A DNA stretch of 21,767 nucleotides from a virus. Numbering within the stretch: the first letter of the stretch is position 1; each line of letters opens with the position of its first letter. Under the pieces are notes generated by a model. The model was not told the DNA's origin. It saw only the letters and a program-made list of their open reading frames with translations, and made no database searches. The stretch is taken from positions 1-21,767 of the IMG/VR virus record IMGVR_UViG_3300021962_008625. One strand, written 5' to 3'. Shown one piece after another: positions 168 through 14,230 of the stretch. The position numbers and the translations under genes are program-made.

Positions 168-641
168 TTAACCCATGTAGTGTGACACCCACCTTACTAC
201 TGTGACAAGATTACCTGCCTTATCGATATGGTAAGTTTGTTCGTTGAGGTCAACCTGAATGAGTCCTTGGTAAGATGAACCTATTTGGTCATACTCAAAT
301 GGAACTATTACATTATTCGCCTTATCGACTAAACCCCACTTGCCGTTGAGTTGGACTCGGACGCCATCTCGATTAACGTAACTTGCATTTTCATATTTTA
401 TTGGAATTACGACCTCGCAAGTCTCGTCGATATAACCATACTTGCCGTCGAGTTTAACCAATGCGAGTCCTTCGTTGAATTGGTGGAGTAGGTCGTACTT
501 TGGCTCAATCAATTCCTTGCCATTCTTATTTACCAAGCCCCACTTACCATTTCGTTTCACTGTGCGGAAACCTTCTTTTTGATTTGGTCCTACCCAGTCG
601 TAACCACGTTTCACTTTCAGCATTTCAGTAAACTTGCTCAT
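168..641 (-). CDS. WG-repeat protein, 157 aa
   Basis: The protein consists of about four WG-type beta repeats after a short N-terminal segment (MSKFTEMLK). The repeats are marked by RNGKWGLVNKNGKELIEPKYD, DGKYGYIDETCEVVIPIKYE, NGKWGLVDKANNVIVPFEYD and a degenerate YHIDKAGNLV. WG repeats (KWGhhd..G..hi...yd) are common in bacterial proteins and are generally thought to mediate binding; no enzyme activity is expected. The start ATG at 639-641 follows GGAGGCAATACA. The first ten residues match the start of the 71-residue WG protein at 1808-2023 (MSKFTEMLK), so the two are paralogues. There is no signal peptide, so the protein is probably cytoplasmic. Its specific role is unknown. Its place in the early-type array suggests interaction with a host component (inference). 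Confidence 0.85.
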   Translation of the reverse strand: MSKFTEMLKVKRGYDWVGPNQKEGFRTVKRNGKWGLVNKNGKELIEPKYDLLHQFNEGLALVKLDGKYGYIDETCEVVIPIKYENASYVNRDGVRVQLNGKWGLVDKANNVIVPFEYDQIGSSYQGLIQVDLNEQTYHIDKAGNLVTVVRWVSHYMG

Positions 642-3748: not shown

Positions 3749-3786
3749 TTGACACTAGGGCAGTTAAGAGCTGTATAACATATAAT
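3749..3786 (+). promoter_or_regulatory. Candidate sigma-70-type promoter elements
   Basis: TTGACA at 3749-3754 matches the consensus -35. Possible -10 elements downstream are TGTATA (3772-3777, spacer 17) and TATAAC (3774-3779, spacer 19). TATAAT at 3781-3786 is too far away. The same bases take part in the helix 3756-3816, so promoter and RNA-structure readings compete. Confidence 0.3.
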
Positions 3787-4135
3787 GTCAAGCTCGCCAG
3801 TGCTTTAATTGCCCTAAGCTGGGTAGGTAGACTCTCCCCTTCCTACGGGGAGAAACTACTTATTACCCTATAGCAGTAATAGATAGAATGCTACAAGCCT
3901 ACTTCCTGCCTCTGGTTGCTCGGTTGGCAGATGTAATTCTCAGCTTGCTCTCATACAACGGTGCATCAACGACCTAGCAATTAGCCGTTAATGTTGTGGG
4001 TTTCCCCTGTTCAATCTTCAGATACTCAAATGTCTCATGCATACGCACTTAGCCCTAGACTGCTCGCGGGACCGTAGTTCCTTCTCGGCGCTCTCTACAG
4101 ATGGGGTATACCCCGAGCCTCTCGACCTTGTAGAG
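3756..4135 (+). ncRNA. Possible structured non-coding RNA
   Basis: Helices visible by eye are listed here. TAGGGCAGTTAA (3756-3767) pairs over 12 bp with TTAATTGCCCTA (3805-3816). Nested inside, GAGCT (3768-3772) pairs with AGCTC (3791-3795). TCTCCCC (3833-3839) pairs with GGGGAGA (3847-3853), TAGCA (3871-3875) with TGCTA (3889-3893), and AACGG (3957-3961) with CCGTT (3985-3989). At the end, CTCTACA (4093-4099)/TGTAGAG (4129-4135) encloses a GGGG/CCCC hairpin (4103-4114) and a GAG/CTC hairpin (4115-4123), a three-way junction. The single non-Watson-Crick pair in the 12-bp helix is G-U on the plus strand but A-C on the minus strand, which favours a plus-strand RNA. No tRNA, tmRNA or intron signature was found. 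Ends and family are unknown. Confidence 0.35.
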
Positions 4136-4149
4136 CGAAGACCCCAAGG
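4127..4149. repeat. 23-bp segment shared with 2513-2535 (copy in intergenic region)
   Basis: Identical to the segment inside the gene at 2410-2649 and in the same orientation. Here it forms the 3' side of the CTCTACA/TGTAGAG stem. A plus-strand transcript of this region would be perfectly complementary to the minus-strand mRNA of that gene over 23 bases. Confidence 0.85.
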
Positions 4150-4312
4150 CAGGCAACTATGTTGGACACGTCCTGACTCGGCTGCGGTGACAATCTTTCG
4201 AACTAGCCTATTTGGTATCACCAGGAAATCCGTTAAAAAAAACCGGCTCCAAATTCATACTACCATAATTTTTTAGGAAAAATTTTACGAAATAATAGTT
4301 GACACATCGAAG

Positions 4313-4318: not shown

Positions 4319-4360
4319 AGTAAGTATTGTTATGAAGACACTTAAGTCTTGGGGGGTGCT

Positions 4361-4558
4361 GTGAAAATATTTTTTACACAAAAACAATTTGAGGAAGCGG
4401 CTAAAGAGTTGCTTTTTGATGAGATTGTTGAGATTGAGATTCTTAAGGCAGAGCGAAATCAAGCCAAGAGAGAGCTTCAGGAATACAGAGACAAACATGT
4501 TTCTGCTATTGTCAAGAAGCGTGTAACCGGAAAAGCGAAATTAAAGCGAAAGAAATAA
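4361..4558 (+). CDS. Small coiled-coil protein with basic tail, 65 aa
   Basis: The preferred start is GTG at 4361, four bases after a GGGGGG run at 4351-4356. A TTG at 4349 in frame would lie before this site. The protein begins MKIFFTQKQFEEAAKELLF. One long charged helix follows (about residues 8-45, rich in Glu and Lys, coiled-coil-like), then a strongly basic tail (VKKRVTGKAKLKRKK). It is the first gene of the rightward block and ends one base before the proteasome-like gene at 4560, so the two are probably translated together. A helical partner or adaptor for that peptidase, or a nucleic-acid-binding peptide, are possible roles. Neither is shown. Confidence 0.72.
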   Translation: MKIFFTQKQFEEAAKELLFDEIVEIEILKAERNQAKRELQEYRDKHVSAIVKKRVTGKAKLKRKK

Positions 4559-4559
4559 C

Positions 4560-5111
4560 GTGACGGTTATCGCTGCAATAAAAGATTCCGAGCACATCTA
4601 CTACGGGTCAGACTCCAGAGTGACCTACGATAGTGGTCCGGCTTATGACATCTGCAACAAATGGCGCGAGGTGCAGAGTAAGCACTTTGATGAGCCTATA
4701 ATGTTTGGCGCTGCAGGCTCAAGCAGGCTGGACAATATCATAGTGTCAAGCTCAAAAATTTTGGAGACTTGTGTGACTCCTTTTGAGATAGCGGATGTTC
4801 TTAAGCGAGCGGTAATTGCGGATTCTTGGAGAGATGCCAAGGGAGACGACGGAGACCCGCAAGATTACTCCGTAGAGATTGTTATGATATTTAATAAAAA
4901 TATATTTAGAATATCCAGTGACTTCTCCGTGACGGCTATTCCTGATTTCACATTAGTCGCGGTGGGTACAGGTGAACCTTATGCTCTCGGTGCTGCGTAT
5001 GCGGCCAGAGCTAAGACCTGCAAGGAGCAAGTAAAGACCGCCGTGCAAGCAGCCATCAAGTACGACCCGAACTGCGGTGGCAAAGTGCAGCTTGGAGATA
5101 TCGAACTATGA
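4560..5111 (+). CDS. Proteasome-beta/HslV-like Ntn-hydrolase, 183 aa
   Basis: The sequence fits a threonine peptidase of the 20S-proteasome beta/HslV superfamily. Removal of Met exposes Thr2 as the N-terminal nucleophile (MTVIAAIKDSEHIYYGSDSR). Counting that Thr as 1, Asp is at 17 (in GSDSR) and Lys at 33 (CNKW), exactly the catalytic positions of the family. FGAAGSSRLDN (about 69-79) matches the conserved Gly-47 segment. VAVGTGEPYALGAAYAA (133-149) matches the GSGG.YA helix start of HslV. D169-P-N-C172-G-G resembles the late D..SG motif, with Cys in place of Ser. The length of 183 is close to HslV. The GTG start at 4560 is one base past the upstream stop, with no strong RBS, so translation is probably coupled. 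No ATPase partner is in the window. Substrate and phage role are unknown. Confidence 0.82.
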   Translation: MTVIAAIKDSEHIYYGSDSRVTYDSGPAYDICNKWREVQSKHFDEPIMFGAAGSSRLDNIIVSSSKILETCVTPFEIADVLKRAVIADSWRDAKGDDGDPQDYSVEIVMIFNKNIFRISSDFSVTAIPDFTLVAVGTGEPYALGAAYAARAKTCKEQVKTAVQAAIKYDPNCGGKVQLGDIEL

Positions 5112-5326
5112 GAAGTAAGAAGGCGGTTGATTATTCACAATGCAAAGCGCCCAGGCTCGACTGTAAACACTGTGGCAAGGAGATGAAGCTGACCGATTTT
5201 TCAGACAGCACGTTAAGACTTCGCGGGCCTTACCACGCCACATATTTGTATCGATGCGAATGCTTTCCTGATGAAGTGCAAGTGCTACCCATTCAAAGAT
5301 ACCCAAAGATAGGAGAATACGTTTAA
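5108..5326 (+). CDS. Small zinc-ribbon-like protein, 72 aa
   Basis: Overlaps the stop of the peptidase gene by ATGA (5108-5111), so translation is coupled. Four cysteines are arranged as CKHC (residues 19-22) and CEC (50-52), consistent with a single zinc-binding ribbon. The intervening segment (LTDFSDSTLRLRGPYHATYLYR) looks beta-rich, as in rubredoxin-like or Ogr/Delta-type fingers. Such small phage fingers may bind DNA, RNA or protein. Ogr/Delta proteins activate late genes, but the spacing here is not clearly theirs. No specific family is claimed. Confidence 0.78.
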   Translation: MRSKKAVDYSQCKAPRLDCKHCGKEMKLTDFSDSTLRLRGPYHATYLYRCECFPDEVQVLPIQRYPKIGEYV

Positions 5327-5871
5327 TGTCACAACTACCACAACCAAAACTAACCTTTAAGCACGATGTCAATGGTGGCCTACAAAGGGTCAGCGTTTAC
5401 GACTCAAAGGGCAACGTGATTCTTGAGCACTCGGACAAGACATTCGAGGGCGCGATGAATGGCATGCAAATTGTTCTAAAAAATTATATTCTTGCACTGC
5501 TTGCCAAGAAAGACAACGTGTATATGCGGGGCCTGTTTAAACCCTGCGACAAGAAGGGCGACGGGCGACTTCCCATCCCAGATTCCCTGTGGGAAAAGAT
5601 TACGATGAACGACTTTCTTATGGGTCACATTGGCGCTATTACTCAGGCTGAGATGGCTCGCATCCGAGGGGTCTCCAGACAGGCCATTAATCAGGCTGTT
5701 AACAAGGGAGACATCGAGGTGTTTGTTTGGAAGAACGAAAAGTATATACCATTTGATACGGTGGCCGTGACGCCTCAGATGTTCGACTTGTACGGTGAAC
5801 CGATGGTGACTTACTATTCTCCATCCGACAAACAAAAGAAGCCGCGAAGGCGCTTTAAAAAGGAGCTCTAA
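5326..5871 (+). CDS. Helix-turn-helix protein, 181 aa
   Basis: The start ATG overlaps the previous stop (TAATG at 5324-5328). Residues 1-60 form a beta-strand region leading into a helix. Residues 105-130 contain a clear helix-turn-helix: ITQAEMARIRGVSRQAINQA, followed by NKGDIEVF, as in MerR/Xre-like winged folds in which a helix reads DNA. The tail is basic (KQKKPRRRFKKEL). It is best read as a DNA-binding regulator or as an accessory packaging protein. It is not the likely small terminase, because a better candidate lies just before the large terminase. It may control the late genes that follow (inference). Confidence 0.78.
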   Translation: MSQLPQPKLTFKHDVNGGLQRVSVYDSKGNVILEHSDKTFEGAMNGMQIVLKNYILALLAKKDNVYMRGLFKPCDKKGDGRLPIPDSLWEKITMNDFLMGHIGAITQAEMARIRGVSRQAINQAVNKGDIEVFVWKNEKYIPFDTVAVTPQMFDLYGEPMVTYYSPSDKQKKPRRRFKKEL

Positions 5872-6446: not shown

Positions 6447-6878
6447 ATGAGCCAACCACAAGCAACTGAAGATTGGAGCCCTAGAGAACCAGAGGTGCAA
6501 GGCGGCTTTGGCGTTTCAATGACCCAAGAACAATTCGATGTTGTGTTGAAACACATCAATAAGGCGACTGAGGAAACCTCAAGACGAGAAGCAGCTGTGG
6601 CACAATCATTAGAGGACCTCAAGCGAGTTGAGGTTGTTAGGACCTACGCTCAATTTGTAAAAGATATTACGACCAGCATACAAACTTTATCCATGATGCC
6701 CGATACCGAAGATACAAGAAGTGAATTGCTAAAAACACTAAGCAATGCAACGTCAGCCTTTAGCGCTGGAGGAGCTTTATCAATCCATGAGGACAAAAAA
6801 GAACTGGAGACCAAAAAAGCACTATACCTTCAAACTGACTCCGGAACAACTGAGCCACCTGAGAACTCTTCAGTATAG
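6447..6878 (+). CDS. Unknown helical protein preceding the small terminase, 143 aa
   Basis: ATG at 6447 follows TAAGGATTAAC, giving an AAGGA ribosome site. The N-terminal 28 residues are polar and probably disordered (QATEDWSPREPEVQGGFG). A long helical region follows, about 28-95 (MTQEQFDVVLKHINKATEE, LEDLKRVEVVRTYAQF), then an Asp/Glu/Ser/Thr-rich tail. The last 92 bases overlap the start of the small terminase frame, so one of the two boundaries may be off. The composition fits a structural or assembly factor. No family is recognised. Confidence 0.7.
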   Translation: MSQPQATEDWSPREPEVQGGFGVSMTQEQFDVVLKHINKATEETSRREAAVAQSLEDLKRVEVVRTYAQFVKDITTSIQTLSMMPDTEDTRSELLKTLSNATSAFSAGGALSIHEDKKELETKKALYLQTDSGTTEPPENSSV

Positions 6879-7476
6879 GTCTAGGTGGGCTAGAACATTT
6901 CACGATAGGACTAAAAAATTGAGCCAACTTAATTCTTACAAGGGAACACTAGACAGAATGCGTAGAGACGCAGCAACCGAAGTGTGGACCATCAATGGTG
7001 TTGAGCACTCACGCCCAGATTTAATGTTTAGAATTACAGACTGGGTAGCGGAAGGTAACTCACTTAAGATGTTTTGTGACCAGCCCGGGGCTCCCAGCGT
7101 GGGCACAATCTACAAATGGTTTAAGAATTACCCAGAATTTGAGAGAGATTTCAGAGCCTCAGAGGAAGCCGGTGCTCATATCATGGCTGATAAGGCACTT
7201 TTGGAGGTATTGCACACCAATGAAAGAGAAGATGTTCCCATTGTTAAGCTAAAATATGACGCTTTGACCCGTAGAGCAGCTCAAATGAGCCAAAAATTCC
7301 AAGATAAACAGGTCTTCAGACAGGAAGAAGACGTAAAATCAGTGTCTGATGACGAGTTGAAGCGCCGAAGAGATGAATTAATGGCCAGAGTAAAGGAAGA
7401 ATTGCGTTCCGAGGGCTGGCAAGAGCCCGCTAAAGAGATAACCGTACAAGCCGAAGAGGAAAAAAATGAAGAATAA
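6787..7476 (+). CDS. terS: Terminase small subunit, 229 aa
   Basis: Recognises the packaging site and brings DNA to the large terminase. The middle of the protein shows the pattern of phage small terminases. RPDLMFRITDWVAEGNSLKM is followed by PSVGTIYKWFKNYPEFERDF, a helix-turn-helix in which a genome-recognition helix is followed by NPEF-like wording, then ASEEAGAHIMADKALLEV. The C-terminus is charged and helical (DDELKRRRDELMARVKEEL), as expected for the oligomerisation and large-terminase contact part. The start chosen is ATG 6787, 12 bases after GGAGGAG (6768-6774). ATG 6745 lacks an RBS. ATG 6958 would avoid the long overlap but has only a weak site. The next plus-strand gene is the large terminase. 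Confidence 0.8.
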   Translation: MRTKKNWRPKKHYTFKLTPEQLSHLRTLQYRSRWARTFHDRTKKLSQLNSYKGTLDRMRRDAATEVWTINGVEHSRPDLMFRITDWVAEGNSLKMFCDQPGAPSVGTIYKWFKNYPEFERDFRASEEAGAHIMADKALLEVLHTNEREDVPIVKLKYDALTRRAAQMSQKFQDKQVFRQEEDVKSVSDDELKRRRDELMARVKEELRSEGWQEPAKEITVQAEEEKNEE

Positions 7477-7721: not shown

Positions 7722-9104
7722 TTGACAAGTTTAAATGAACTTCAAAGATTAGAAGAAGAGTTATTAAGGCGAGAACGGGAAAATAAGCTTAAAAACTTCA
7801 AGCCTTACCCTAAACAACTGTCTTTTATGAATGATGGGCACAAGATTGTGGCTCTTTTTGGGGGTAATCAGTCCGGAAAGACCACCGTTGGGTCTGCTTT
7901 TGTGGCTTATCACCTAACGGGAGAGTACCCATCTTGGTATAAAGGCATAAAATTCGACAGACCCGTAACCATCTGGGTAGCTGGCGAATCCTCAACCCGC
8001 GTGCGAGATACCCTGCAAGAAAAGCTGTTTGGACAGCTTGGAGAGTGGGGAACGGGGCTTATTCCCAAGCAAAACATGGTTGGAGACCCAATTCGCAAGG
8101 GTGGTATCCCTGGTGCTATTGATATTGCTAGGGTTAGGCATAAATCTGGGGGAACCAGCATTATTCAGTTCTTCTCTTATGACCAAGGCCGAGAGAAGTT
8201 TCAGGGTTCAACCGTTGATTTAGTGTGGTGTGACGAGGAACCGCCTGAAGATATTTACAAAGAAGCCAAAATGAGGACGATTGCGGCCTCTGGATATGTT
8301 TTCCTGACCTTTACCCCGCTGAAAGGTATAACGCCCCTCTGTGACGAAATAATGACGAATTCGGAGGATATGTACGGAGTTCACTTCCTGACTTGGGACG
8401 ACGTTACACATTTGACCGAAGAAGATAAAAAATTACAGATAGCGGGCCTCGGTCCACACGAAATAGAAAGCCGTAAATTTGGAAGACCGACTATTGGTTC
8501 AGGCAAGGTTTATCAGTTCGACGAAGAGGATTATGTCATAACCGATTTTTCGGTCAACCCAAAGTGGAAAACTATTGGCGGATTGGACGTTGGTATATCG
8601 CATCCGACCTGCGCCGTTAAGCTCTCAATCGATGAAGAATCGGGTGTTGGTTACATCCATAAAGAATACAAAGTATCTGGAGAAACATCCATTTATCACG
8701 CGTACAAACTAAGGGATTGGCCCTGCAGGTTTGCTATCGACCCAAATTCAAGACAACGCTCGATTGCGAGTGGAGACTCGCCTTACAAAATGTTCCAAGA
8801 CATCATGGGCGACGATAGATTAATTTTGGCGGATAACCGAGTCAATTATGGAATATCTTTGATACGAGCCAAGATAGCTTCCGAACAACTCTACATCTTT
8901 GAATCCTGCGTAGAAACGCTGAAAGAGATGCGTTTGTATAGGTTTAAAGAAAACGGAGATATCCACAAAGTTGATGATGATTTGATGGATGCGATGAGAT
9001 ATGCCGTGACGGGTTGGGATAAAGCAGTTGCTATTACCGAACTTCACAGGCAACATGAGGTAAAATATGAATGGAAGCCTGTTAATAAACGAGTAGGTTA
9101 CTAG
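7722..9104 (+). CDS. terL: Terminase large subunit, 460 aa
   Basis: ATP-driven packaging motor and genome-cutting nuclease. Residues 47-55 (GGNQSGKTT) are the Walker A loop. VDLVWCDEE (165-173) is Walker B with its catalytic Glu. TFTP (196-199) is the coupling motif. The C-terminal RNase-H-fold nuclease shows its acidic residues at D289 (IGGLDVG), D340 (FAIDPN) and D423 within DDDLMDAMRYA. The length is typical. The start is TTG at 7722, five bases after GGAG (7713-7716). No upstream ATG fits. It is followed by the portal gene after 9 bases. Confidence 0.95.
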   Translation: MTSLNELQRLEEELLRRERENKLKNFKPYPKQLSFMNDGHKIVALFGGNQSGKTTVGSAFVAYHLTGEYPSWYKGIKFDRPVTIWVAGESSTRVRDTLQEKLFGQLGEWGTGLIPKQNMVGDPIRKGGIPGAIDIARVRHKSGGTSIIQFFSYDQGREKFQGSTVDLVWCDEEPPEDIYKEAKMRTIAASGYVFLTFTPLKGITPLCDEIMTNSEDMYGVHFLTWDDVTHLTEEDKKLQIAGLGPHEIESRKFGRPTIGSGKVYQFDEEDYVITDFSVNPKWKTIGGLDVGISHPTCAVKLSIDEESGVGYIHKEYKVSGETSIYHAYKLRDWPCRFAIDPNSRQRSIASGDSPYKMFQDIMGDDRLILADNRVNYGISLIRAKIASEQLYIFESCVETLKEMRLYRFKENGDIHKVDDDLMDAMRYAVTGWDKAVAITELHRQHEVKYEWKPVNKRVGY

Positions 9105-9113
9105 GAGATTATA

Positions 9114-11384
9114 ATGACAATGGAATTCGGCGACATTCAAGGTCAGCCACCCAGCGCTACATCGGGATTAGCCAAACTAGTTCAAGACCGTTTTACTTGG
9201 TGTAGAAACCTGCGTTTCTTGCAACAAGAAAAATGGTTAGCCGCAAAGATGAATTTTGACGGTATCGATTATTACGGTTCTGATGAATCCGCAAATCAAT
9301 CGGGTATCTTTTTAAATTTTACACAAATGAAAACAATGTCTGCGTATTCGCAGATTATGAACGTAATGTCTGGAGTGGACGGTTATCCATTTAGTATTAG
9401 GCCAACCCCAATCCCGGAAATTGTTAAATTAGGTTTTAAATCAACCGGAGAGGCAGAGAAACATCCCCGTCTTCCAGAAGATTTAAAAATGAGAATCATG
9501 GCTTCGAATATTTCTTGCGACGGCATGAGAGTAAAAATAAAAGATGATTTAGAAGAAACACATTGGGAAGAGAAGTTTGCAAGAGGGGTTCTTGATTTAG
9601 TTGTTCTTGGAACAATGGTTATCAAGGGACCCTTTGCTGCCCCACCGAATCCTAAAAAATGGATGCTCGTTGATGAAGAAGAAAAAGAAGGAATGCTCTC
9701 TTCAATTAAGGGCGCAATCGGAATGTCTAAGTCAGTCAAAAAAGTATTTAAACTTGTCTCGACTGAATCAGACGCAAGACCTGATTTGGAAGTTGTTTCT
9801 CCATTCGAATTCTATCCGGACCCCGCAGCAGTGAATATTAAAGAAGCCATGTGGGCTATCCATAGACATGTGATGAACAAACATGAATTACTTAACCTTG
9901 CTGAAGTGGAAGGTTTTAATTCTGAGGAAATCAAAAAAGCTGTAGAAGCAAATCCAAAAGGTAACTGGACAGCTGAGACTTGGGAAAGCCGAGTCTTCGC
10001 TTTAAATCAAAGACAGACTCCGATGGCTAGGGGCGACAGGTATGTTGTTCTTGAGCACTGGGGTTATTTCGGAGGCAGAGAACTTGAAAACGCTGGTGTA
10101 GAAATGCCAGAGGGCCACGACAAAAACAAGCAATATATGACTTGCATCTGGACCGTTGGAGAGTATTGCATCAAGGTTTCTCTAAGCTCGCTCGAAAGTC
10201 CCTATATTCCGTTTATGGTCTGTCCATACGAAAAGATTCTCTACAGCATTTGGGGTCGCGGTGTTCCCGAAAAGATGCGTGACCCACAGGATATTGTTAA
10301 TGCCGCCGCTCGCGCGATGGTAGACAATATGGGTATCGCTGCAGGACCTCAAGTCATTTACGACACAAGTCGAATGATTAATGGCTTTAAGTTTGAAGGT
10401 ATCAAACCCTGGGGCGTGTGGCCTCTCAAGACGCTGGAGGGAATCCAATCCCCACCGGTTACATTCGTTCCTGTTCCCAGCATTCTTGGAGACCTAAAAG
10501 TTCTGCAAGACAATTTTAAATTGTTTATTCAGGAAGTTACTTCGATGCCGGATATGGCCGGAGGCTTTGCTGGCTCCGCTACTGGTCAACACAACAGAAC
10601 TGCTTCTGGCATGGGCATGTTATTTAACGCTGCCAATAATTACATTAAAGGCGTTCTTTTCAATATCGATAACAATATTACAAAGCCTATGGTCAGAAGA
10701 ATGTACGATTGGAATATGCAATTCTCTTCCGACATGTCTATCAAGGGAGATTTTAGTATTGAAGCCGGCGGAGTCTCTAGGCTTATGGCTCTTGAAGGCA
10801 AGGCGTCTAGTGTTGCAGAACTGATTCAGCTCATGCAAGACCCAGACTACAAGCCGTACATTAACAAGGAAGCTATTCTCAAAGAATGGATTAGGACGCG
10901 CGGATTCGACGCTACGGACATCATCAATTCAGATGGACAGGCTGAGCAAATCAAACAACAAATGGCGCAACAAGCAGCTGCTATGGCTCAAGCTCAAAAC
11001 GTTCCAACTCTTAGAGCCGAGATGTCAAGACCAGATGCGTTGCTTGAAATGTTGCAAAATACGGATAAGGATAGCCCAATTTATCCTGCCATCTACGAAC
11101 AGGTAGCCTTGTCTCAAGACGCAATGAATCCATCGATGAAAGCCGCTTTAGATTTAATGAAGATGCAATTATTATCTTCAATCGAACCTGATAAACAAGC
11201 CGCTTTAAATGAACTTGCTACCAAGTCTGCTCCGGACCAAATGGACCATCAACAAGCAGCTGGATATCCTATGACTGCACCTCAACAACAAGGTGAACAA
11301 CAAGAGGGTGGCGAACCACAGGATGAAATACAAATGGCTTTAAACGATATTTTTCAAGATGAAAATGGACAAAATCCGTCTTGA
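9114..11384 (+). CDS. Portal protein, P22-like, 756 aa
   Basis: Forms the dodecameric ring at one capsid vertex through which DNA enters and leaves. It starts at ATG 9114 behind AGGAG. The length and layout resemble P22-type portals: an N-terminal helical region (RFTWCRNLRFLQQEKWLAAK), a clip/stem region with an insertion, and a conserved core with QDIVNAAARAMVDNMGIAAG. SGMGMLFNAANNYIKGVLFN, near the channel-loop and crown transition, follows. The C-terminal 120 residues are Gln/Ala-rich and helical (QQMAQQAAAMAQAQN, PQQQGEQQEGGEPQDE), recalling the barrel of P22 portal but lower in complexity. It sits next to the large terminase, as expected for its docking partner. Confidence 0.9.
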   Translation: MTMEFGDIQGQPPSATSGLAKLVQDRFTWCRNLRFLQQEKWLAAKMNFDGIDYYGSDESANQSGIFLNFTQMKTMSAYSQIMNVMSGVDGYPFSIRPTPIPEIVKLGFKSTGEAEKHPRLPEDLKMRIMASNISCDGMRVKIKDDLEETHWEEKFARGVLDLVVLGTMVIKGPFAAPPNPKKWMLVDEEEKEGMLSSIKGAIGMSKSVKKVFKLVSTESDARPDLEVVSPFEFYPDPAAVNIKEAMWAIHRHVMNKHELLNLAEVEGFNSEEIKKAVEANPKGNWTAETWESRVFALNQRQTPMARGDRYVVLEHWGYFGGRELENAGVEMPEGHDKNKQYMTCIWTVGEYCIKVSLSSLESPYIPFMVCPYEKILYSIWGRGVPEKMRDPQDIVNAAARAMVDNMGIAAGPQVIYDTSRMINGFKFEGIKPWGVWPLKTLEGIQSPPVTFVPVPSILGDLKVLQDNFKLFIQEVTSMPDMAGGFAGSATGQHNRTASGMGMLFNAANNYIKGVLFNIDNNITKPMVRRMYDWNMQFSSDMSIKGDFSIEAGGVSRLMALEGKASSVAELIQLMQDPDYKPYINKEAILKEWIRTRGFDATDIINSDGQAEQIKQQMAQQAAAMAQAQNVPTLRAEMSRPDALLEMLQNTDKDSPIYPAIYEQVALSQDAMNPSMKAALDLMKMQLLSSIEPDKQAALNELATKSAPDQMDHQQAAGYPMTAPQQQGEQQEGGEPQDEIQMALNDIFQDENGQNPS

Positions 11385-13276: not shown

Positions 13277-14230
13277 ATGCCAAATCAAGTTTCACGCTCA
13301 GGTGCGAACCTTTCGGCTGGCGCATTTATTCCTCAGATTTACTCCGCTAAATTGCAGGATAAATTCTATGCCGCCTCTGTTGTTCCCGCCATTGCCAACC
13401 ATAACTGGGAAGGCGAAATCATGGCTTTCGGTGATACCGTCAACATTCGTAAGGTTCCTACCGTTACGATTTCTGACTACTCCGTAAACAGCCCCATCAA
13501 CTATCAAGACGTTTCTGATGAGCTCATTCAATTGAACATCAACCAAGCTAAATACTATGCTTTCAAAGTTGATTACATTGATGACTACCAGTCAGATATC
13601 GCATTGATTGATACCATCACCCAAGACGCTTCCATGCAAATGGCCGTCAAGGTTGACCAATCGGTTCTTCAATCAATCTATTCCGATGTCGCTACTGCCA
13701 ACACGATTGGTGGAAGCTCCACCGGTATCGTCCCCACCATTGGTGATGCTACCTACGGAATCGACCTTTCTGGTCTCTGGAACACAAGTGCTGCAACCGG
13801 TGGTAACTCTTTATTGTTAACCCCCTTAATGCAAGCTGGTCAAGTTCTTGATACCAACAATGTGCCCCGCGACGGTCAACGTTTTGCTGTTGTCACGCCG
13901 GAATATGCTCGTTACCTGAAACAATCAGACCTCAAGTCTGTTTTAATCACCGGTGACAGCGAATCTCCGCTACGCAACGGTTACGTTGGTGAAATCGACG
14001 GAATGAAACTATATGTTTCGACTAACCTCTTGAATGCTGCTAGCAGCACCTCAACAGCTTGGTCACGCATGTACGTTGGTCACATGTCGGCTTTGACTTT
14101 CGCAAGTCAATTCATCAAGCACGAAATGCTGCCCTTGCAGAACACTTTCGGATACGGAATTAAAGGACTTCAAGTCTACGGATTTAAAGTCGTTAAGCCC
14201 GAATCCTTAGTGCTTATCAACGCTTATTAA
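13277..14230 (+). CDS. Major capsid protein (P22 coat-like), 317 aa
   Basis: Builds the icosahedral shell. The N-terminal stretch FIPQIYSAKLQDKFYAASVV is the typical opening of P22-coat-like phage capsid proteins (F.P.i.s..l......s.v...). It is followed by GDTVNIRKVPTVTISDYSVN and the segment INQAKYYAFKVDYIDDYQSD, with later TPEYARYLKQSD and VGEIDGMKLYVSTNL, patterns shared by HK97-fold capsids. The length fits a capsid without a large insertion domain. It starts at ATG 13277 behind the strong TTAAAGGATTTAT leader and is followed by an intrinsic terminator. No cleavage site for a maturation protease is evident. Confidence 0.87.
   Translation: MPNQVSRSGANLSAGAFIPQIYSAKLQDKFYAASVVPAIANHNWEGEIMAFGDTVNIRKVPTVTISDYSVNSPINYQDVSDELIQLNINQAKYYAFKVDYIDDYQSDIALIDTITQDASMQMAVKVDQSVLQSIYSDVATANTIGGSSTGIVPTIGDATYGIDLSGLWNTSAATGGNSLLLTPLMQAGQVLDTNNVPRDGQRFAVVTPEYARYLKQSDLKSVLITGDSESPLRNGYVGEIDGMKLYVSTNLLNAASSTSTAWSRMYVGHMSALTFASQFIKHEMLPLQNTFGYGIKGLQVYGFKVVKPESLVLINAY

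Follow-up and report, generated by a model that had tools for sequence, protein, structure and literature searches.

The stretch of DNA analysed here, a 21,767-base record of an uncultivated bacterial virus referred to below as the window, encodes on its plus strand a proteasome/HslV-like threonine peptidase of 183 amino acids (4560-5111), followed by terminase, portal and capsid genes. This protein is probably a phage-encoded, catalytically competent peptidase of Ntn hydrolase group I, most likely a BPH-like ring working without an AAA+ unfoldase.

The open reading frame begins with a GTG codon and its predicted N terminus reads MTVIAAIKD. Relatives of the peptidase were gathered through scans with the large terminase subunit and the major head protein, which yielded 22 and 23 loci, respectively, and were then aligned. 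The Met-Thr start stands in the same alignment column in all 13 listed relatives (two of them near-identical), each with an ATG start, which is why we regard the GTG start in the window as sound. A search of a viral contig collection with the single protein gave no matches, and neither did tblastn against named phages at E<=1e-3 or a weak search for BPH fragments in plasmids. Two matches in genome contigs were discarded: one (L058) stems from a stretch, AGSSRLDN, that occurs by chance within a 626-amino-acid LuxR/TPR-like protein, and the other (L059) is likewise short and weak (33% identity over 45 residues).

The only PHROGs entry to match the protein was phrog_1040 (E=2.3e-21), annotated ‘peptidase HslV family’. 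The HslV models of NCBIfam reached E=2e-5 with 24.4 bits against a curated cut-off of 157.75, so that the protein does not qualify as an HslV equivalog. In Pfam no family matched at E<=1, the Proteasome model included. A sequence search of the PDB ranked BPH first, both with the single sequence (E=0.0018) and with a profile (E=5e-5). The lack of a T1 profile match, which the initial annotation had listed as an argument against its assignment, was therefore found in Pfam but not in PHROGs, NCBIfam (below threshold) or the structure search.

An AlphaFold model based on 13 sequences (pLDDT 86.1, pTM 0.84) shows N-terminal strands, two helix pairs (residues 55-68/74-87 and 139-148/154-168) and a final strand. 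Comparison of this model with the PDB by Foldseek gave BPH as the best match (E=2.6e-10, TM about 0.75), followed by HslV and proteasome beta subunits; 989 PDB entries matched at E<=0.001, and the best ones were all BPH, HslV or proteasome. The best viral matches likewise include proteins named HslV or proteasome subunit. Based on the PHROGs, PDB profile, AlphaFold and Foldseek results, we consider the predicted alpha-beta-beta-alpha proteasome fold secure. The family and fold proposed in the initial annotation are thereby confirmed, including by the structure prediction that it had suggested as a check, which recovered a proteasome-like fold and matched the crystal structures of BPH and HslV. 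Also supported is an exposed N-terminal threonine that is not preceded by a propeptide.

In the 20S proteasome, Thr1, Lys33 and Asp17 form the catalytic triad and Gly47 the oxyanion hole, while Ser129 and Asp166, together with Ser169, act on the Thr1 amine (PMC4792962). The motifs named earlier as counterparts of these residues are all present in the open reading frame, and we scored their conservation in the 13-sequence alignment. Thr2 (4563-4565), the predicted catalytic Thr1 after removal of Met, and Lys34 (4659-4661), which corresponds to proteasome Lys33, are invariant. Asp18 (4611-4613; proteasome Asp17) is Asp in 12 of 13 sequences, the sole relative with Glu at this position being L002 (611-1159). 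This Glu17 may mean an altered or weakened active site in L002. The GAAG segment (4707-4718; GxAG, with G50, A52 and G53 invariant) contains the candidate oxyanion-hole glycine. Judged from these residues, the set of Thr1, Lys33, Asp17 and oxyanion glycine is intact in the predicted protein of the window.

The second triad was matched by motif and not by geometry. Its Asp is invariant and lies in DPNCGG (5064-5081), the equivalent of proteasome Asp166..Ser169-Gly-Gly with Cys in place of Ser (D169, C172, G173 and G174 invariant), and the Ser129-equivalent position falls in Gly-Thr-Gly (residues 136-138; 4965-4973). The initial annotation had called both the Thr and the Cys odd. The Thr is a variant of the window only, as every other aligned sequence has GSG, and we discarded it as a family marker. 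The Cys of DxxCGG, in contrast, is a trait of the whole clade, since C172 is invariant in the alignment. Pairwise dN/dS values of the peptidase gene range from 0.02 to 0.11 in the pairs where they could be computed; the gene is under strong purifying selection.

An acidic loop, predicted to line the pore, lies at residues 92-102 (4833-4865) between helix H2 and the next strand. Its sequence, WRDAKGDDGDPQDYS, was modelled with low confidence; it is elongated and acidic as in BPH, where the loop lies between H2 and S7, and K94, G98 and P100 of this segment are invariant in the alignment. BPH has a long acidic pore loop that is disordered between residues 95 and 101 in crystals, and no apparent unfoldase, whereas in HslV, which requires HslU, the pore linker is short and contains basic residues that are necessary for activity (PMC5777263). 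Among the phage records, which are mostly fragments, the AAA domain (PF00004) was absent from all 14 scanned and the HslU-type AAA_2 domain (PF07724) from all 10 scanned, while 14 of 14 control genomes were positive. The earlier remark that no ATPase partner is visible in the window therefore also holds for these records. As they are mostly fragmentary, a partner may be encoded in DNA that they lack, or the host may supply its HslU.

The latter would make the protein a viral HslV that borrows the host unfoldase and acts as an ATP-dependent protease. We regard this as unlikely. HslV is the second-best fold match and its NCBIfam model was hit at E=2e-5, but the score of 24 bits is far from the 158-bit cut-off, the long acidic loop contrasts with the short HslV linker and its required basic residues (PMC5777263), and the C-terminal DxxCGG motif differs from that of E. 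coli HslV. Taken together, the acidic low-confidence loop, the lack of a recognised AAA+ partner and the best fold match with BPH favour a self-compartmentalised peptidase that would be independent of ATP over both an HslVU-type protease and a decoy.

The genomic position of the gene is constant within the clade. It is present in every locus whose DNA extends upstream as far as the gene; loci that begin within the gene or downstream of it carry no information in this respect. The conserved plus-strand order comprises a variable small open reading frame or none, the peptidase, often a 72-amino-acid open reading frame, a helix-turn-helix protein and further small genes, followed by the small and large terminase subunits, the portal, a likely scaffold and the major head protein. 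In the window, a 69-amino-acid open reading frame (4349-4558), missing from some relatives, ends 1 nt before the GTG start. The 72-amino-acid frame (5108-5326), which is conserved in several relatives, overlaps the peptidase stop codon and is followed by the helix-turn-helix gene (5326-5871), which comes next among the conserved genes in every relative whose DNA covers this stretch. Downstream are the small (6745-7476) and large (7722-9104) terminase subunits, both identified by Pfam and PHROGs, an SU10-like portal protein (9114-11384; Pfam) and the major head protein (13277-14230; PHROGs). The genes upstream of the peptidase operon face the opposite direction. A promoter-like -35 box, TTGACA (4299-4304, plus strand), precedes the operon and is invariant in eight aligned loci; it may serve as a promoter, and a consensus promoter scan of the window scored no site there.

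The arrangement is the same in a 54.9-kb contig of a more complete relative (L038): the structural run opens with the peptidase, and replication-type genes diverge from it. The layout in the window and in this contig suggests late expression of the peptidase gene. The location beside packaging genes, pointed out in the initial annotation, recurs in all informative relatives, where the peptidase heads the terminase-portal-capsid run. We also compared neighbourhoods in a small, hand-picked sample of family members. The gene lies on the same strand within about 4 kb upstream of the terminase in the window clade, L055, Salmonella phage VT223, Proteus phage RS51pmB and Microbacterium phage BarnCat, and also upstream of the terminase in Raoultella phage RP180 if that record is circular. 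ZY21, VpV262, VLCpiM12a, 4L372D, RXM and Rhizobium phage RHph_TM2_3B carry a family gene without such a terminase-proximal position.

The position in front of the packaging and capsid genes would fit a protease that acts in virion assembly by trimming the scaffold, the portal or the capsid protein, and the genes scanned from portal to capsid included no known head-maturation protease family. Against this, the capsid protein appears from its sequence to start with a folded part and has no obvious N-terminal propeptide, BarnCat possesses a relative of the family next to a separate capsid maturation protease, and in other phages the family is found far from head genes. Processing of scaffold or capsid, one of the functions initially proposed, has no positive evidence in our data, and we consider such a role distinctly unlikely.

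Phages carry many inhibitors of host proteases and unfoldases. The protein could accordingly be a non-cutting decoy or inhibitor by which a host protease or unfoldase is poisoned or sequestered, and the lack of a reported substrate would fit this. Such a function is unexpected because the catalytic residues (Thr1, Lys33, the oxyanion glycine and the Asp of the second triad) are invariant under strong purifying selection. The conserved catalytic site and the BPH-like acidic loop also weaken the earlier suggestion that HslU or Mpa is sequestered, and we judge a decoy to be very unlikely. A role as a protein ligase of high specificity, or as an enzyme with a single substrate, is highly improbable: proteasome-like folds were repurposed in this way in connectase, which has a two-helix insertion and lacks the first helix pair (PMC8665760), but in our model S3 and S4 are not separated by such an insertion, and both helix pairs are present.

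For the BPH-like peptidase that we favour, the following mechanism can be envisaged. Owing to the Met-Thr start without a propeptide, host methionine aminopeptidase would remove Met1 and expose Thr1, which would hydrolyse peptide bonds in concert with Lys33 and Asp17. The subunits would most likely assemble into a closed ring or double ring like that of BPH, with no AAA+ unfoldase, and the acidic pore loop may select unfolded segments or one particular substrate. As its gene stands first among the late genes for packaging and head formation, the peptidase would be active in the late phase, with a protein of the host or the phage as its target. BPH was inactive on the model substrates tried, and peptidase activity can therefore not be assumed. 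The Glu in place of Asp17 in L002, the missing Pfam match and the fragmentary state of the records also count against this explanation. It may further be speculated, as a rather improbable scenario, that the protein is a substrate-specific viral proteasome, that is, an ATP-independent ring which belongs to the late assembly programme, has a Cys-modified second triad and trims or removes one defined phage or host protein that the acidic pore loop selects.

Phage-borne proteasome homologs have been described before, namely PPH, AAH and CPH by Fuchs, Alva and Lupas in 2021 (PMC8665760), and a phage BPH has been annotated in one paper (PMC8953757). The Kagunavirus PPH has matches in 298 records of the phage collection, and the protein of Pseudomonas phage ZY21, at loose cut-offs, matches a further 70-210, which overlap in part; many of the matching records are annotated ‘peptidase HslV family’. 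In view of these record counts, annotations and papers, such homologs are a known kind of phage gene. The description of a phage copy as notable gene content was consequently too strong, considering the homologs published in 2021 (PMC8665760), the hundreds of phage records with the family and the standing phage annotation.

PPH are defined as proteins of about 140 residues without helix H2 from Caudovirales phages (PMC8665760). The protein of the window agrees with this definition in its Caudovirales phage origin and its membership in PHROG 1040, but not in its 183 amino acids or in the predicted helix 74-87 before the pore loop. With the Kagunavirus/Jerseyvirus ‘peptidase HslV family’ it shares PHROG 1040, the GSG-PYAL and [KY]-[FY]-DPNxGGK motifs, a compact C terminus and, in some of those members, the location upstream of the terminase. 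It differs from them in length (183 versus about 140-147 amino acids) and in the Cys before GG, where they have Ser or Thr (DPNTGG in the Kagunavirus PPH), and the identity of 40-43% is limited to the last third; where PPH lack H2, it has this helix and a long acidic loop. BPH (PDB 5ovs, 5ovt, 5ovu) is the best match among solved structures by profile and fold and resembles it in the acidic elongated pore loop and the lack of a recognised unfoldase. In contrast to the window gene, however, BPH is a chromosomal bacterial gene, the identity is 18-20%, and the window clade shows the DxxCGG motif without additional length. HslV (ClpQ) has the same fold, Thr1/Asp17/Lys33 and Met-Thr start, but the protein of the window is far below the HslV cut-off and differs from HslV with HslU in having no HslU, an acidic instead of a short basic pore loop and another late motif. 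A 163-amino-acid HslV-family protein of the L055 type, from other IMG/VR phage contigs, shows 27% identity over its full length and a Thr start, and its gene likewise lies upstream, about 1.3 kb before a terminase gene; it lacks aligned GSG and DxxCGG segments. The window clade is therefore a divergent member of the family and possibly a separate subfamily, the comparison having been made with PPH and HslV and not with AAH or CPH.

We found no report in the literature of a substrate or complex for any phage proteasome homolog. These homologs are common and conserved, and the present clade offers a compact, well-conserved set in which the active site is intact, the genome position fixed and the loop similar to that of BPH, so that a ring without ATPase and its cleavage target become directly testable questions. 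In Aeromonas phage 4L372D (L074, 3402-4855), two genes, both annotated ‘peptidase HslV family’, form a tandem pair, and their products could form a mixed complex.

The region between the divergent gene sets (3788-4240) is conserved wherever the DNA of a close relative covers it. Its consensus folding energy is -88.7 for the minus strand and -60.0 for the plus strand, compared to -16 +/- 4 for the column-shuffled plus-strand alignment. The minus-strand consensus contains 93 pairs, 32 of them with two-sided changes, 97.4% of the cells are paired, and on the measures given none of 500 shuffles and none of the slid versions equals it. One seven-pair helix has an almost entirely different sequence in the window and yet retains its pairing. 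Rfam contained no matching family, even at E<=10, blastn against named phages gave no matches, and a motif search of the viral collection returned only contigs of the window phage clade. This suggests a conserved structured RNA candidate of roughly 450 nt on the minus strand, possibly a new large phage RNA family, and this neighbour may be a more novel object than the peptidase itself. A link between the two is unsupported, because the L038 contig keeps the peptidase and a model of the RNA 5' domain found no match there.

At 3749-3753 and about 3785-3792 the window contains TTGACACTA; in several relatives a TAGTGTCAA copy faces it close to the far end of the RNA region. This arrangement resembles an inverted repeat or operator-like pair. 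On the minus strand of a relative (L012, 594-1610), a protein starting with MCGIWAIIPEH resembles class II glutamine amidotransferases; if it is one, the same phage clade would possess another N-terminal-nucleophile enzyme. Two further minus-strand genes of the window (168-641 and 1808-2023) encode proteins that share the N terminus MSKFTEMLK and, with repeats of the KWGLV/KYGYI type, resemble WG-repeat proteins.
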